In this document: piece after piece, positions 51,921 to 58,510 of the stretch
Layout of the letters: every line of letters begins with the position of its first letter
Position numbering within the stretch: the first letter of the stretch is position 1
Assembly (NCBI GenBank): GCA_937867335.1
Contig: CALMKX010000229.1
Coordinates: 1-64,000 of the forward strand
Direction: 5' to 3'
From: an uncultured Acidobacteriota bacterium
GTDB lineage: Bacteria; Acidobacteriota; Thermoanaerobaculia; Multivoradales; SZUA-115
Length of the DNA: 64,000 bases
Notes under the pieces: model-generated
Database searches by the model: none
What the model was told of the DNA's origin: nothing
The model's input: the letters and a program-made list of their open reading frames with translations, nothing else
Made by a program: the position numbers and the translations under genes

Positions 51921-52274
51921 TCAGGCGATGGGCATGCGCGCTGCGAAGCCGTCCTCGTAAGAGTGGAAGTGAGCCAGGCTCTCCTCGGGATAGCGCCAGC
52001 AGTAGTAGCCATCGCCGTTGTCCCAGTCCACCAGCCACAGGCCCTTCACCTCGCAGCCGAGCTGGGTGATCTCCTCCGCCCAGGCCTGGATGATGCGCTC
52101 GTAGGAGCCCTGCAGCTCCTCTCGCCGAGTTTCCATCTCGTCGCGGCTCTGGAGGGCATTGAAGAGAGCCTCCACCTGGCGCACGGCGGCGTGGGTGAGG
52201 TCCCGAACGGCGGGGAAGGTGTTCAGGGCCTCTTCGTAGCTGAAGATCCGGCGGGGGCGCGGGCGCTCGCTCAC
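51921..52274 (-). CDS. DUF2203 family protein
   Basis: A 117-residue protein that begins RIFSYEEALNTFPAVRDLTHAAVRQVEALFNAL and ends with the DUF2203 signature VKGLWLVDWDNGDGYYCWRYPEESLAHFHSYEDGFAAR. The function of the family is not known; the first half is a long helix pair. GTG is the start, with TAGCAT seven bases upstream. It is the last gene with typical host base composition before the low-GC island. Confidence 0.8.
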   Translation of the reverse strand: MSERPRPRRIFSYEEALNTFPAVRDLTHAAVRQVEALFNALQSRDEMETRREELQGSYERIIQAWAEEITQLGCEVKGLWLVDWDNGDGYYCWRYPEESLAHFHSYEDGFAARMPIA

Positions 52275-52281
52275 GGCGAGG

Positions 52282-52287
52282 ATGCTA
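52282..52287 (-). promoter_or_regulatory. -10 hexamer before the DUF2203 gene
   Basis: TAGCAT on the minus strand, seven bases before the GTG at 52274, with no ribosome site. Confidence 0.45.
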
Positions 52288-52409
52288 GCAGAGGGAGGCT
52301 CTGCAACCTCACCTTCCCAATGCCTACCGCAGCCGAGGCCAGCAATAGGGCGGCGAAGGCCGAGTGTTCCCTCCTGGACAAATTGGCTAAGAACGGGCAT
52401 CATGTCGCC

Positions 52410-53324
52410 ATGGGCGATCGCAAGTCCGGCGTAACACGACCTCCTGCACACCGATTTGGCGGAGGTTGGACGGAAAGCAAACTGGCCATAGTCCAAAGCT
52501 ATCTCAGGGCATATGCGATAGCCTTGAAGGAAAAGCGCTTTCAGATTGCCTATATCGATGCCTTCGCTGGCACCGGATACAGGTCGGAGAAGGAGGAGGG
52601 GCCAGAAACAGGCCTCCTCTTCCCAGACCTGGCTGCGGACGCGCCACAGGAGTTCCTCGAGGGTTCGGCTCGGCTCGCCCTGCAGGTCGACCCTTCTTTC
52701 GACAAGTACCTGTTTATTGAGAAAGACCCAGCCAGATGCCGCGTTCTGGAGACACTAAAGCAAGAATTCCCGGACCGCTCGGCGAGAGTGCAAGTGCGTG
52801 AAGGTGATGCGAACAAGGTATTACAGGAGATCTGTGGCAAACCTGGGTGGGAGAACCTACGCGCAGTCCTTTTTCTGGATCCCTATGGCATGCAAGTTGA
52901 GTGGGACACGATAGAAGCAATCGCCAACACAGGAGCTATAGACCTTTGGCTACTTTTTCCGCTCGGAATGGGGCTGAGTCGGTTATTGCCGAGGAGTGGA
53001 AACATCCCTGATGGCTGGCGCAGGCGACTTGATCTCTTCCTTGGAACCACTGACTGGCAACAGGCTCTCTACAGTGAGAGACCCAGGCGGAGTCTGTTCG
53101 ATGATGACGCTGTAGAGAAAGTAAGAGCTAGCACTGGCGAGGTGGGGCGCTATTTCGTGGATAGATTGAGGACGGTGTTCCCAGCAGTCTCTGACAGTCC
53201 AAGAGTGCTAGAGAACTCATCGCGCTGCCCCCTCTACTTGCTCTGCTTCGCTGTGAGTAGCCGCAACCCCCAGGCTCAGAGGATTGCGCTTAGGATCGCA
53301 GACCATATACTGAGAAGCGACTGA
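52410..53324 (+). CDS. tcmP: Three-Cys-motif partner protein TcmP (methyltransferase-like)
   Basis: This 304-residue protein matches the TcmP family, found next to three-Cys-motif proteins. The N-terminus FGGGWTESKLAIVQSYLRAYAIALK and IAYIDAFAGTG (residues 47-56) are typical. The layout looks like a class I SAM-dependent methyltransferase: D-x-F-A-G-x-G as motif I, an acidic residue after strand 2 (FIEKD, Glu104), EGDAN (131-135) and LFLDPYG (154-160), where DPY resembles the D/NPPY loop of base methyltransferases. The ATG lacks a ribosome site; a TTG at 52383 is possible. Codon use is unlike the neighbours. The function is not established. Confidence 0.87.
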   Translation: MGDRKSGVTRPPAHRFGGGWTESKLAIVQSYLRAYAIALKEKRFQIAYIDAFAGTGYRSEKEEGPETGLLFPDLAADAPQEFLEGSARLALQVDPSFDKYLFIEKDPARCRVLETLKQEFPDRSARVQVREGDANKVLQEICGKPGWENLRAVLFLDPYGMQVEWDTIEAIANTGAIDLWLLFPLGMGLSRLLPRSGNIPDGWRRRLDLFLGTTDWQQALYSERPRRSLFDDDAVEKVRASTGEVGRYFVDRLRTVFPAVSDSPRVLENSSRCPLYLLCFAVSSRNPQAQRIALRIADHILRSD

Positions 53325-53327
53325 GCT

Positions 53328-54179
53328 ATGGCGTGGAACTCACAAATCGAGTGGACCGAGGCAACTTGGAATCCAGTTACTGGCTGCACTAAGGTGAGCC
53401 AGGGCTGTAAGCACTGCTATGCAGAGCTCCTTGCTAGTCGGCTCCGGGCTATGGGGCAGCCGAACTACTCGAATGGTTTCCGGCTCACACTGCAGCCCCA
53501 CATGCTCGAGCTGCCTTTGCGCTGGAAACGGCCCCTAAGGATCTTTGTTAACTCAATGAGCGACTTATTTCATGAGGATGTTCCAGTCGAGTATATCGCT
53601 CGCGTTTTTGAAGTGATGGAGATCTCCAACTGGCACACGTTCCAGGTCTTGACCAAGCGAGCCAGCCGGCTAGCGGCTCTGGCCTCCGCTCTCCGCTGGC
53701 CGGAGAACGTCTGGGTTGGCGTGAGCGTTGAGAACGCCGACAACCTTGACAGGGTTGAGAAGCTGCGCGAAGTTCCTGCTGCTGTCAAATTCCTTTCCCT
53801 TGAGCCGCTTCTCGGCCCGTTGAGTGGCCTGAATCTCAAGGATGTGCAGTGGGTTATCGTAGGGGGTGAATCCGGCCCCAAAGCGCGGTCGGTGGATCGA
53901 GAATGGATTCTCGACATTCGGAACAAGTGCCTTGCCGGCCGTGTGCCTTTTTTCTTCAAGCAGTGGGGCGGAGCAAACAAGAAGGCGGCTGGTAGGCTCC
54001 TCGATGGTCGCACGTGGGACGAGATGCCACAGGCCGCCGCTTCTTCGAGGCAAGCAGCCGAGCACAGGGAGAAGGCTGAGCTTCCCGCGGAGGGTATTGC
54101 CAAACACGGGAGACGGGTCGTAGTGAAGACCGGCTATTCCAGCCGAGTAAGCCCAACAGGCTGGGAGTTCGGACGTTGA
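53328..54179 (+). CDS. DUF5131 (phage Gp37/Gp68-like) three-Cys-motif protein
   Basis: The 283-residue product has the family N-terminus [27 protein letters not shown], with Cys20, Cys27 and Cys30 (C-x6-C-x2-C), reminiscent of radical-SAM cluster motifs. Other conserved blocks are [54 protein letters not shown] and PFFFKQWGG. Homologues occur in phages and mobile regions. It starts three bases after the tcmP stop and shares its low-GC codon use, so the pair was probably acquired together. Catalysis by an iron-sulfur radical mechanism is an inference. Confidence 0.88.
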
Positions 54180-54204
54180 CTTGACTCGGGTGGAGCCGTA
54201 ACCT
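54176..54204 (+). promoter_or_regulatory. Possible promoter of the A-type Fe-S carrier gene
   Basis: TTGACT and TAACCT are separated by 17 bases, ending 71 bases before the ATG. The -35 matches well and the -10 only moderately. The -35 overlaps the stop of the DUF5131 gene at the island edge. Confidence 0.35.
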
Positions 54205-54275
54205 TGATCTCTGGCTCAGCGGCCGACTTGCCGGCGGCCTGGAGGAGCCAGGAAACCACCAAGGAGCCCGAGATC

Positions 54276-54659
54276 ATGGAGAACCTCGAAACGGCCGCGG
54301 AGGCCGCCGCCGTGCAAGCCGAACCCGAGTTCCCGGTCACCCTGACCAAGAAAGCGGTGGACATGGTGGCCTACACGCGCGAGCAGGAGGGCATCGATTC
54401 TGGCCACGGCTTGCGAGTGGCGGTGCGAGGGGGTGGCTGCAGCGGATTTGAGTACGCCCTCGATTTCGAGAACGAGGCCCGTGCCAACGACTTCACCTAC
54501 GAGCAGCACGGCCTCACGGTGTACATCGACGCGATCAGCGCTCGCTACCTGAACGGCACCAGCATCGACTACGTCCTGGGCAGCAGTGGTGCCGGGTTCA
54601 AGTTCCACAACCCCAACGCCGTGGGTCACTGCGGCTGCGGCTCCTCCTTCGCCGTCTAG
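54276..54659 (+). CDS. A-type iron-sulfur cluster carrier (IscA/ErpA/SufA family)
   Basis: The 127-residue protein has the three cluster-binding cysteines of the family: Cys55 in RGGGCSGFEY and Cys119/Cys121 in GHCGCGSSFAV. TLTKKAVDMV and the GLTVYIDAISARYLNGTSIDYV segment also fit. It has an N-terminal extension of about 20 Glu/Ala-rich residues. It would carry Fe-S clusters to apoproteins. A good AAGGAG lies nine bases before the ATG. YgfZ, a factor also tied to Fe-S enzymes, is encoded 0.8 kb away. Confidence 0.93.
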   Translation: MENLETAAEAAAVQAEPEFPVTLTKKAVDMVAYTREQEGIDSGHGLRVAVRGGGCSGFEYALDFENEARANDFTYEQHGLTVYIDAISARYLNGTSIDYVLGSSGAGFKFHNPNAVGHCGCGSSFAV

Positions 54660-56665: not shown

Positions 56666-56781
56666 GTCGCATAGGCAATTGTTTGTAAGTATTTTCAGTT
56701 TCACCACCCTGGCGGCTGCTGTCGAGCGTGAGCGGAGTGGCTCAGGAATCGCTGGCGGTCACCACTCAACAGGAGGAACGT

Positions 56782-57612
56782 ATGCAAAAGCTCGCTCTGG
56801 TCGCTCTTCTCGGGCTCGTCCTGAGCCTCCCTGCCCTGGCCGCCGATCCGGTCATCTTCAAGGGAATCGACGTCTTCACCACGACCGCTGACGGCAGCAC
56901 GCACTACGACTTCAAGACCAGCCCCATCCCGGCCGGCTTCTTCTGCCCGGGCTCGGCCCCCTTCACGGGCCAGGTCGCCTTTCGTGGGCTGCCGCTCGTA
57001 ACCGGCGTGCCGGGTCAGCTCGGCGGTGCCGACACCATCGTCGAGCGACTGGACGACGCGGTCTTCGACGCCCAGGGACGGGCGGTCACGCGGGTCCAGC
57101 TGCGGGCCCTCTCGCTGGTGAGCCTCGCTCCCATCAGTACCTCCTGCGGCCGGTTCAACGTCTACGCCTCTCTCGCTGGCACCCAGCGCATCACCACCAT
57201 GAACATCTTCCGCCTGCACGAGAAGAGCGGCGTGTTCTCAGCGCCTCTGGCGGTGGACGCTCGGCTCAGCTTCGTGCCGGTGATCGGCAAGGCGAGCCGC
57301 CCGCTCGAGCTTCAGGGCAGCTTCAACTTGAGCGGTGGTGAGCCGATTCCCTGGGCCAAGCCGGGCAACGCCAGCTCGGCTCCGACCGGCGCCGTACTGA
57401 TCGACACCAACGGCGACGGCAAGGCCGAGACGCGGCTGGCCGGGACCTCGAACTTCGTGGCCGGAGCCCGTTCGGCGTCCGACGACGGCGTTCAGCTGCC
57501 CCCCACGGCTCTCGCTCAGGAATGCCCCTGCGGCTGCTACTACGTCAGCTGCCACGCCGATCCGGTCACCCTCAAGGCCCACTGCGTGACCGTCTGCGGC
57601 TGGGAGCCCTGA
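56782..57612 (+). CDS. Exported protein of an unrecognised family, paralogue A
   Basis: The signal peptide is MQKLALVALLGLVLSLPALAADP and AGGAGG lies five bases upstream of the ATG. The 276-residue product shares long blocks with the convergent gene next door: DPVI.KG.D..TT, NPIPAGFFCPGSAPFTG-type, GVPGQL..ADTIVERLDDA, SCGRF.V..SLAG.QRITTM, SAPLAVDARL.F, and VLIDTNGDGKAET. The last block looks like a DxNxDG calcium loop. The C-terminal 35 residues are Cys-rich (CPCGCYYVSCH...CVTVCG) and differ from the paralogue. The function is unknown. Confidence 0.8.
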   Translation: MQKLALVALLGLVLSLPALAADPVIFKGIDVFTTTADGSTHYDFKTSPIPAGFFCPGSAPFTGQVAFRGLPLVTGVPGQLGGADTIVERLDDAVFDAQGRAVTRVQLRALSLVSLAPISTSCGRFNVYASLAGTQRITTMNIFRLHEKSGVFSAPLAVDARLSFVPVIGKASRPLELQGSFNLSGGEPIPWAKPGNASSAPTGAVLIDTNGDGKAETRLAGTSNFVAGARSASDDGVQLPPTALAQECPCGCYYVSCHADPVTLKAHCVTVCGWEP

Positions 57613-57700: not shown

Positions 57701-58510
57701 CTAGGCGTCGCAGAAGACGTTGCCGCAGATCTGCACGCAGTGCAGCTGCCCCGTGCCGTCATCGTGGCAGCAGTAAGTGGTGTAGCCGCACGCGCCCACC
57801 AGCTCGATCGGCGAGGAGACTCGCCATCCGGCGACGAAGTTGGAAGTTCCGGGCAGGAGGGTTTCGGCCTTGCCGTCGCCGTTGGTGTCGACCAGGACGG
57901 GGCCGGAGGAGAGGCCGCCCTTCTGGGTGCCGAAGGACCACGGGAAGGCGGTGGCGCCCTGGAAGGTGACGGTGGCCAGGAGCTCCTTGGGCTGGGCGGA
58001 GCCGGCGAGGACGGGTCGGAAGACCAGCCGAGCATCGACGGCCAGGGGAGCGGTGAAGACGCCGCCGAGCTCATTCTGGCGGACGATCCTCATGGTGGTG
58101 ATGCGCTGCTCGCCGGCGAGGGAGACGCTCACCCGGAAGCGGCCGCAGGAGGTCTCCACGGGAGCCGAGCTCACCAGGGAGAGGGCGCGCATGCGCACAC
58201 GGCTCAGGGTGACGCCGTTGGTGTCGAAGCGGGCATCGTCCAGTCGCTCGACGATGGTGTCGATGCCCGGCAGCTGGCCCGGGAGGCCGGTTACGAGGGG
58301 TCGGCCATGGAGGGCGATCTTGCCGGTGAAGGGGGCCGAGCCAGGGCAGAAGAAACCGGCGGGGATGGGGTTGTTGGCGAAGCTGACCACAGTGCCACTG
58401 CCCTTGGGCGTGGTCCAGAGGTCGGTGCCCTTGTAGATCACCGGATCGGCGGCAAGGGCCGGCAGGGCGATCACAAGGCCGAGGAGCGCGAGCGCGGAGA
58501 GAGTTTTCAT
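57701..58510 (-). CDS. Exported protein of an unrecognised family, paralogue B
   Basis: A 269-residue paralogue of the gene at 56782, in convergent orientation. The signal peptide is MKTLSALALLGLVIALPALAADP, with AGGAGG upstream. The shared core includes NPIPAGFFCPGSAPFTGKIAL, GIDTIVERLDDARFD, SCGRFRVSVSLAGEQRITTM, TAPLAVDARLVF, VLVDTNGDGKAETLLPGTSNFVAG. The C-terminal tail has a different cysteine pattern (CGYTTYCCHDD...CVQICGNVFCDA). The two genes probably arose by an inverted local duplication. No enzyme motif is seen. Confidence 0.8.
   Translation of the reverse strand: MKTLSALALLGLVIALPALAADPVIYKGTDLWTTPKGSGTVVSFANNPIPAGFFCPGSAPFTGKIALHGRPLVTGLPGQLPGIDTIVERLDDARFDTNGVTLSRVRMRALSLVSSAPVETSCGRFRVSVSLAGEQRITTMRIVRQNELGGVFTAPLAVDARLVFRPVLAGSAQPKELLATVTFQGATAFPWSFGTQKGGLSSGPVLVDTNGDGKAETLLPGTSNFVAGWRVSSPIELVGACGYTTYCCHDDGTGQLHCVQICGNVFCDA

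Follow-up and report, generated by a model that had tools for sequence, protein, structure and literature searches.

Results

A two-gene cassette encodes TcmP and a DUF5131 protein

The stretch of DNA that we analyzed, 64,000 nucleotides long and referred to here as the window, contains a two-gene inserted cassette at positions 52275–54275. Its first gene, tcmP (52410–53324, forward strand), encodes a protein of 304 amino acids that we describe, from TIGR04474 and PADLOC matches, a structure model and fold searches, as a predicted class I AdoMet-dependent methyltransferase of the short type (PDC-M41A). The second (53328–54179, forward strand), whose ATG lies 3 bases past the tcmP stop codon, encodes DUF5131, a radical-SAM-type partner of 283 amino acids. 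The pair sits between two divergent genes, a DUF2203 gene (51924–52274, reverse strand) and an Fe-S biogenesis gene (54276–54656, forward strand). GC content drops from 0.65–0.70 outside the cassette to 0.54–0.56 within it, and a relative from the same family has an empty site, where the DUF2203 and Fe-S biogenesis genes are arranged divergently as in the window, about 157 bp separate them and the pair is absent. No target-site duplication is evident at the cassette ends. The source genome carries a single copy of tcmP.

The interval 52410–53324 is a real gene, as judged by two family matches of its product: it scores 208.5 bits against the NCBIfam model TIGR04474 (cut-off 53; E = 1.7e-61), making it a member of that family, and its best PADLOC model is PDC-M41A (E = 1.7e-115, 384 bits). 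Scans of Pfam and PHROGs gave nothing useful for TcmP; within Pfam, PF04378, the RlmJ family, was not matched at E values up to 1, and we dismissed a DNA photolyase match (E = 0.085) as chance, given that it falls far under the cut-off and that the fold gives it no support. In the open-access literature, TcmP turns up by its full name in tables without a function, and its family name is likewise functionless.

TcmP genes elsewhere vary in form. A long type of approximately 365–385 amino acids, with an uncharacterized C-terminal extension of approximately 90 residues, is found at loci L003, L005, L010, L007, L022, L026 and L027, and on plasmids of R. rhizogenes and A. tumefaciens a single DUF5131 gene has two TcmP genes, unequal in length, beside it. 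An in-frame TGA breaks up one relative with 57% identity to the window protein (L033:1522–2394), which suggests that in some hosts the cassette is decaying.

Elsewhere in the window, two similar predicted secreted proteins are encoded convergently at 56728–57612 (forward strand) and 57701–58510 (reverse strand). They have in common an AADPVI.KG start and differ in their Cys-rich C-termini; this pair looks like a diverged inverted duplication.

TcmP has a predicted class I methyltransferase fold and is homologous to RlmJ

The first-pass annotation had proposed, from the order of its motifs, that TcmP adopts the class I methyltransferase fold. The translated open reading frame contains each of the named motifs in the claimed order, YIDAFAGTG (residues 48–56), LFIEKD (101–106), REGDAN (130–135) and LFLDPYG (154–160), and alignments place them at conserved positions of the family. 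We modeled the protein with AlphaFold2 using a 57-row alignment of the window TcmP and 56 relatives taken from locus DNA. The model has a mean pLDDT of 89.9 and a pTM of 0.86, with low values only near the start and around residues 61–80. Its seven strands (45–51, 99–104, 127–131, 150–156, 177–184, 265–268 and 274–282) alternate with helices in the class I methyltransferase order along the chain, and motif I (50–56) follows strand 45–51. When the model was compared with the PDB using Foldseek, ranks 1–9 were occupied by RlmJ-type structures (E = 1e-7 to 1e-6), mostly E. coli RlmJ together with its Legionella homologue 2oo3; Aquifex Trm1 (3axs) came at rank 11 (E = 1e-5), and NNMT and spermidine synthase were also listed, under RlmJ. 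TM-scores against RlmJ reach only about 0.5, which we attribute to TcmP being largely without the RlmJ helical subdomain and to differing C-terminal halves. Structure prediction and fold searching had been named as the check on the proposed fold; with the methyltransferase sheet order present and the best nine PDB matches all of RlmJ type, the modeled structure bears the proposal out.

The homology to RlmJ is independent of the structure model, since sequence profiles also rank RlmJ first in the PDB. Profile searches with TcmP returned RlmJ at E = 5e-6 (short-type profile) and 3e-7 (wide profile), followed by the Legionella homologue 2oo3 and then by an RsmD-type protein at E = 0.015. Profile–profile comparison of TcmP with an alignment of nine RlmJ sequences gave E values of 5e-11 and 2e-12. 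Among single E. coli proteins used as controls against the TcmP profile, RlmJ scored best (1.2e-6), followed, as would be expected, by RsmD (1e-4), Dam (6e-3) and RsmJ (0.14), and TIGR04474 itself matches E. coli RlmJ weakly (E = 0.0012). TcmP is thus very probably a methyltransferase related to RlmJ, an RNA adenine methyltransferase.

Catalytic and AdoMet-binding residues of RlmJ have counterparts in TcmP

In RlmJ, K18 and D164 are essential; S100, E118, D143 and D164 contact AdoMet, and K18 has been modeled as touching the catalytic Asp and the adenine (PMC3814359). Y4 and H6 of RlmJ are essential as well. Correspondences between these residues and TcmP were taken from profile alignment, as opposed to coordinate superposition, and conservation was assessed in the 57-row alignment and in a second alignment of 19 rows. 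K24 of the motif X helix (52479–52481, forward strand) lies opposite K18 in the second profile–profile alignment (E = 2e-12), and D157 lies opposite D164. Both are invariant in the two alignments (K24 in 57/57 and 19/19 rows), as are D50, G54 and G56. The last three belong to motif I, DAFAGTG (D50–G56; 52557–52577, forward strand), the predicted AdoMet loop; the viral TcmP loci were retrieved with a motif I pattern, so part of the conservation that this motif shows in the 57-row set is a product of the retrieval.

The remaining AdoMet contacts of RlmJ also find partners. S86, in the G85-S86 pair of GSARLAL (52662–52667, forward strand; 57/57 rows), is opposite S100, which in RlmJ holds the amino-acid part of AdoMet, and is itself conserved in 57/57 and 18/19 rows. 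The motif II acid E104 (52719–52721, forward strand), opposite the ribose-contacting E118, is E or D in all rows. D133 of motif III (52806–52808, forward strand), opposite D143 at the AdoMet adenine, is D in 48 of 57 rows; conservation at this GDAN position falls short of that at the other motif positions and is lower in the long TcmP type. The N-terminal tail motif of the RlmJ family, YRHxxHAGNxAD, has Y4 and H6 invariant in nine RlmJs and not conserved in TcmP, where H14, opposite H6, is H in 31 of 57 rows; base positioning must therefore differ from that in RlmJ.

The predicted catalytic loop, motif IV (D157-P158-Y159-G160; 52878–52889, forward strand), lies opposite RlmJ DPPY and has a single proline. 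We tallied this motif, which played no part in the retrieval of the viral loci, in 91 distinct TcmP sequences; many viral loci are mutually related, and the counts are of sequences as distinct from independent events. Asp is present in 91/91, Pro in 89/91, Tyr or Phe in 89/91 and Gly in 78/91. DPYG (57 sequences) and DPFG (19) are followed by DPYA (5), DPFA, DPFS and DPYD (2 each), and DPYN, DPFN, DQTG and DQLG (1 each); the aromatic third residue is Y or F, and the wide alignment has a single row with W. DPP occurs in none of the 91, placing the loop outside the RlmJ-type DPP(Y/F) pattern and marking the single proline as a family trait. DP(Y/F)G likewise departs from the (D/N/S)PP(Y/F/W) motif of N6-adenine and N4-cytosine DNA methyltransferases, for which the Dam control was weak (E = 6e-3). 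The first-pass annotation was therefore right about the lone proline. Of the conservation it expected of Asp and Tyr, the Asp part stands in full, and what is conserved at the other position is an aromatic residue rather than Tyr itself. Its suggestion of a likeness to N6-adenine enzymes gains from the nearest solved family being RlmJ (164-DPPY-167), with K18 and D164 opposite the invariant K24 and D157.

TcmP is consistently paired with a radical-SAM-type protein

The DUF5131 protein of the window matches PF07505 (339 bits), and its best PADLOC model is PDC-M41B (389 bits). Its three-Cys motif, C20-x6-C27-x2-C30 (53385–53417, forward strand), is invariant in 46 rows. A model of the protein (pLDDT 84) has spore photoproduct lyase as its best PDB fold match, at an E value of only 7e-4 and a TM-score of about 0.4, and the radical-SAM family model TIGR04471 matches the sequence at E = 1e-19, far below that model's cut-off. 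The Pfam Radical_SAM model did not match it, and a search of PDB sequences with a DUF5131 profile returned no matches. Taken together, the modeled fold and the three invariant cluster cysteines suggest that DUF5131 is a radical-SAM-type enzyme with a fold nearest that of spore photoproduct lyase. We found no functional study of DUF5131, PDC-M41/M30 or Gp37/Gp68 in the open-access literature.

A radical-SAM-type neighbor accompanies all 79 TcmP genes that are flanked by 1 kb or more on each side: DUF5131 for 72, and for the other 7 a member of a second radical-SAM family that passes the Pfam Radical_SAM cut-off. The partner may lie downstream, upstream or in convergent orientation, and three or more switches of partner type can be counted on the TcmP tree, a quick tree with several weak forks. 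Because orientation varies and partner type has changed in this way, the association does not reflect one inherited operon.

The converse dependence is looser. In the phylum sample, 19 of 63 DUF5131 copies have no recognized TcmP nearby; wider profiles detected none beside 11 of these 19, and one of the 11 starts at a contig end. Since DUF5131 also occurs without a recognized TcmP, the two proteins need not share one pathway everywhere. An orphan copy lies near LexA in L145, near an AbiEii-like AAA gene in L148, near a DNA methylase and a helicase-like gene in L147, and near ThiF with a HerA-like gene in L149. Longer DUF5131 matches (approximately 850–1020 bp) that lack a recognized TcmP occur in G181, G152, G109, G107, G281, G040:C24 and G029; these are probably a separate subfamily with an insert.

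The pair is a mobile cassette found near defense genes

TcmP is present in 46 of 297 genomes of the phylum and in 66 viral contigs detected with an alignment query, where a single-sequence query of the same contigs found no relative; it also occurs in phage and plasmid records. The TcmP/DUF5131 pair is a mobile cassette that travels among bacteria, plasmids and phages.

Both window proteins match PADLOC models of PDC-M41; PDC entries are non-validated candidates from "guilt-by-embedding" (PMC10855318). On plasmids, TcmP neighbors include BREX genes at one locus and two Abi proteins elsewhere, McrC with an AAA ATPase and an N-6 DNA methylase at another, a type ISP enzyme, and DUF1837 with a DEAD/DEAH helicase, a combination that we read as Hachiman-like. 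In S. meliloti, SMa2243 (TcmP) is tabulated beside Hna, SMa2245 (PMC12445080).

Two viral arrangements tie the module to other enzymes. A five-gene operon (L101:6836–14681) encodes a long TcmP, a short TcmP, a second-type radical-SAM protein, an N6_N4 DNA methylase and a type III Res-like helicase in genes that overlap or nearly touch, and L041 and L042 are similar. In L101, the TcmP module appears to be built into a type III restriction-modification system. On another viral contig (L043:2801–8404), the gene order is AdoMet synthetase, TcmP, radical-SAM gene and terminase large subunit, and this virus may supply its own AdoMet to the module.

Discussion

We propose, with a probability of about 0.68, that TcmP is an RlmJ-type class I AdoMet methyltransferase that forms, with its radical-SAM partner, a mobile nucleic-acid-modifying module. 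The proposal draws on computation for the fold, the homology to RlmJ, the catalytic and AdoMet-contacting residues, the unbroken pairing of TcmP, the mobility and the defense genes nearby; from these we infer what follows about catalytic activity, target base, DNA or RNA, the order of the two steps and a role in defense. TcmP would hold AdoMet through motif I, S86, E104 and D133, and D157 of the DP(Y/F)G loop, together with K24, would activate an exocyclic amine on a base for methyl transfer. Adenine N6 is the most likely acceptor, given that the closest enzyme, RlmJ, has the same Lys-Asp pair. By analogy with the lyase that repairs spore photoproduct, and because TcmP is always found paired, the radical-SAM protein would probably share the nucleic-acid substrate of TcmP, acting either ahead of methylation or following it. 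The modified molecule is most likely DNA or RNA, with the pair either marking self or acting on foreign nucleic acid. DNA is favored by the embedding in type III restriction-modification, RNA by the homology to RlmJ, and we choose neither. Against an RlmJ-type assignment stand a motif IV with one proline where RlmJ and the D/NPPY enzymes have two, the lack of conservation of the essential RlmJ residues Y4 and H6, and the TM-scores of about 0.5.

The choice of base is where the chief rival arises, in that Trm1, which forms m2,2G26 in tRNA, has the single-proline motif IV DPFG. TcmP might accordingly methylate guanine N2 instead of adenine N6. We regard this as unlikely, despite a loop that is closer to DPFG than to DPPY and that reads DPFG in 19 of 91 sequences, a fold match to Aquifex Trm1 among the leading PDB structures, and the placing of RsmD, an N2-guanine enzyme, as second-best profile control. 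RlmJ stands above Trm1 by fold, Trm1 is absent from the sequence-profile searches, and K24 is opposite a lysine modeled as contacting the catalytic Asp and the adenine. A target other than nucleic acid is very improbable: class I folds serve many substrates, NNMT and spermidine synthase among the Foldseek matches, and a protein or small molecule, possibly the partner itself or a phage protein, could be methylated; but the top sequence and fold neighbors act on nucleic acid, and base N-methyltransferases are arranged in this way, with an invariant Lys and an Asp-Pro-aromatic loop.

Alternatively, TcmP could bind AdoMet without being a methyltransferase, serving its radical-SAM partner as a scaffold or a specificity subunit, or else sensing AdoMet or its breakdown. 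That TcmP is always paired while DUF5131 is not, that two relatives have lost the proline and aromatic (DQTG and DQLG), and that at some loci a single radical-SAM gene is accompanied by two paralogous TcmP genes would all suit such a role; it is nevertheless rather improbable, because Asp in 91 of 91 sequences and Lys in every aligned row go beyond what AdoMet binding alone would lead one to expect. Somewhat less probable still is repair of damaged nucleic acid, in which TcmP would assist a DUF5131 protein that reverses a lesion in the manner of spore photoproduct lyase. The lyase is the best PDB fold for DUF5131 and a LexA gene lies near one orphan copy, but the patchy spread through the phylum, the presence on phages and plasmids, and the BREX, McrBC, Abi and type III restriction-modification neighbors better suit defense or anti-restriction.

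Taking TcmP as an RlmJ-type methyltransferase, one may tentatively go further and ask whether, with its radical-SAM partner, which is like spore photoproduct lyase, it constitutes an undescribed two-step system that makes or removes an unusual base on DNA or RNA, used by bacteria for distinguishing self from phage and by phages to escape restriction, and built at some loci into a type III restriction-modification operon; we consider this possible, at odds well short of even. If both enzymes act on the same base, the chemistry would be a so far undescribed form of defense or anti-restriction. The pair is widespread on mobile DNA and has been modeled as a phage-defense candidate, and we found no predicted chemistry for TcmP/DUF5131 in the open-access literature. 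The RlmJ-like and radical-SAM assignments name the residues of an active site, point to a methylated base as the expected class of product and provide a direct assay.

Several known systems frame these predictions. The window protein belongs to TIGR04474, the three-Cys-motif partner protein TcmP, a name that assigns no function, and the window pair fits PDC-M41A and PDC-M41B of the PADLOC PDC-M41/PDC-M30 candidates, which are experimentally non-validated and carry no assigned chemistry. Spore photoproduct lyase has in common with DUF5131 the best-matching PDB fold and a three-Cys cluster motif, C-x3-C-x2-C in the lyase, unlike the C-x6-C-x2-C spacing of DUF5131. Trm1, the tRNA N2,N2-dimethylguanosine-26 methyltransferase, shares the class I fold with TcmP; it is a housekeeping tRNA enzyme, a weaker fold match (rank 11) than RlmJ, and without a sequence-profile match. 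The closest solved family is that of RlmJ (YhiR; PF04378/COG2961), the 23S rRNA m6A2030 N6-adenine methyltransferase. Common to RlmJ and TcmP are the class I fold, motif I (HAGxG/FAGxG), a GSP/GSA motif, an acidic motif II residue, the motif III Asp, the motif IV catalytic Asp and the motif X Lys. TcmP differs in having DP(Y/F)G in place of 164-DPPY-167, in having neither the conserved tail with Y4 and H6 nor the greater part of the helical subdomain, and in its C-terminal half; unlike RlmJ, it is mobile and paired with a radical-SAM enzyme.
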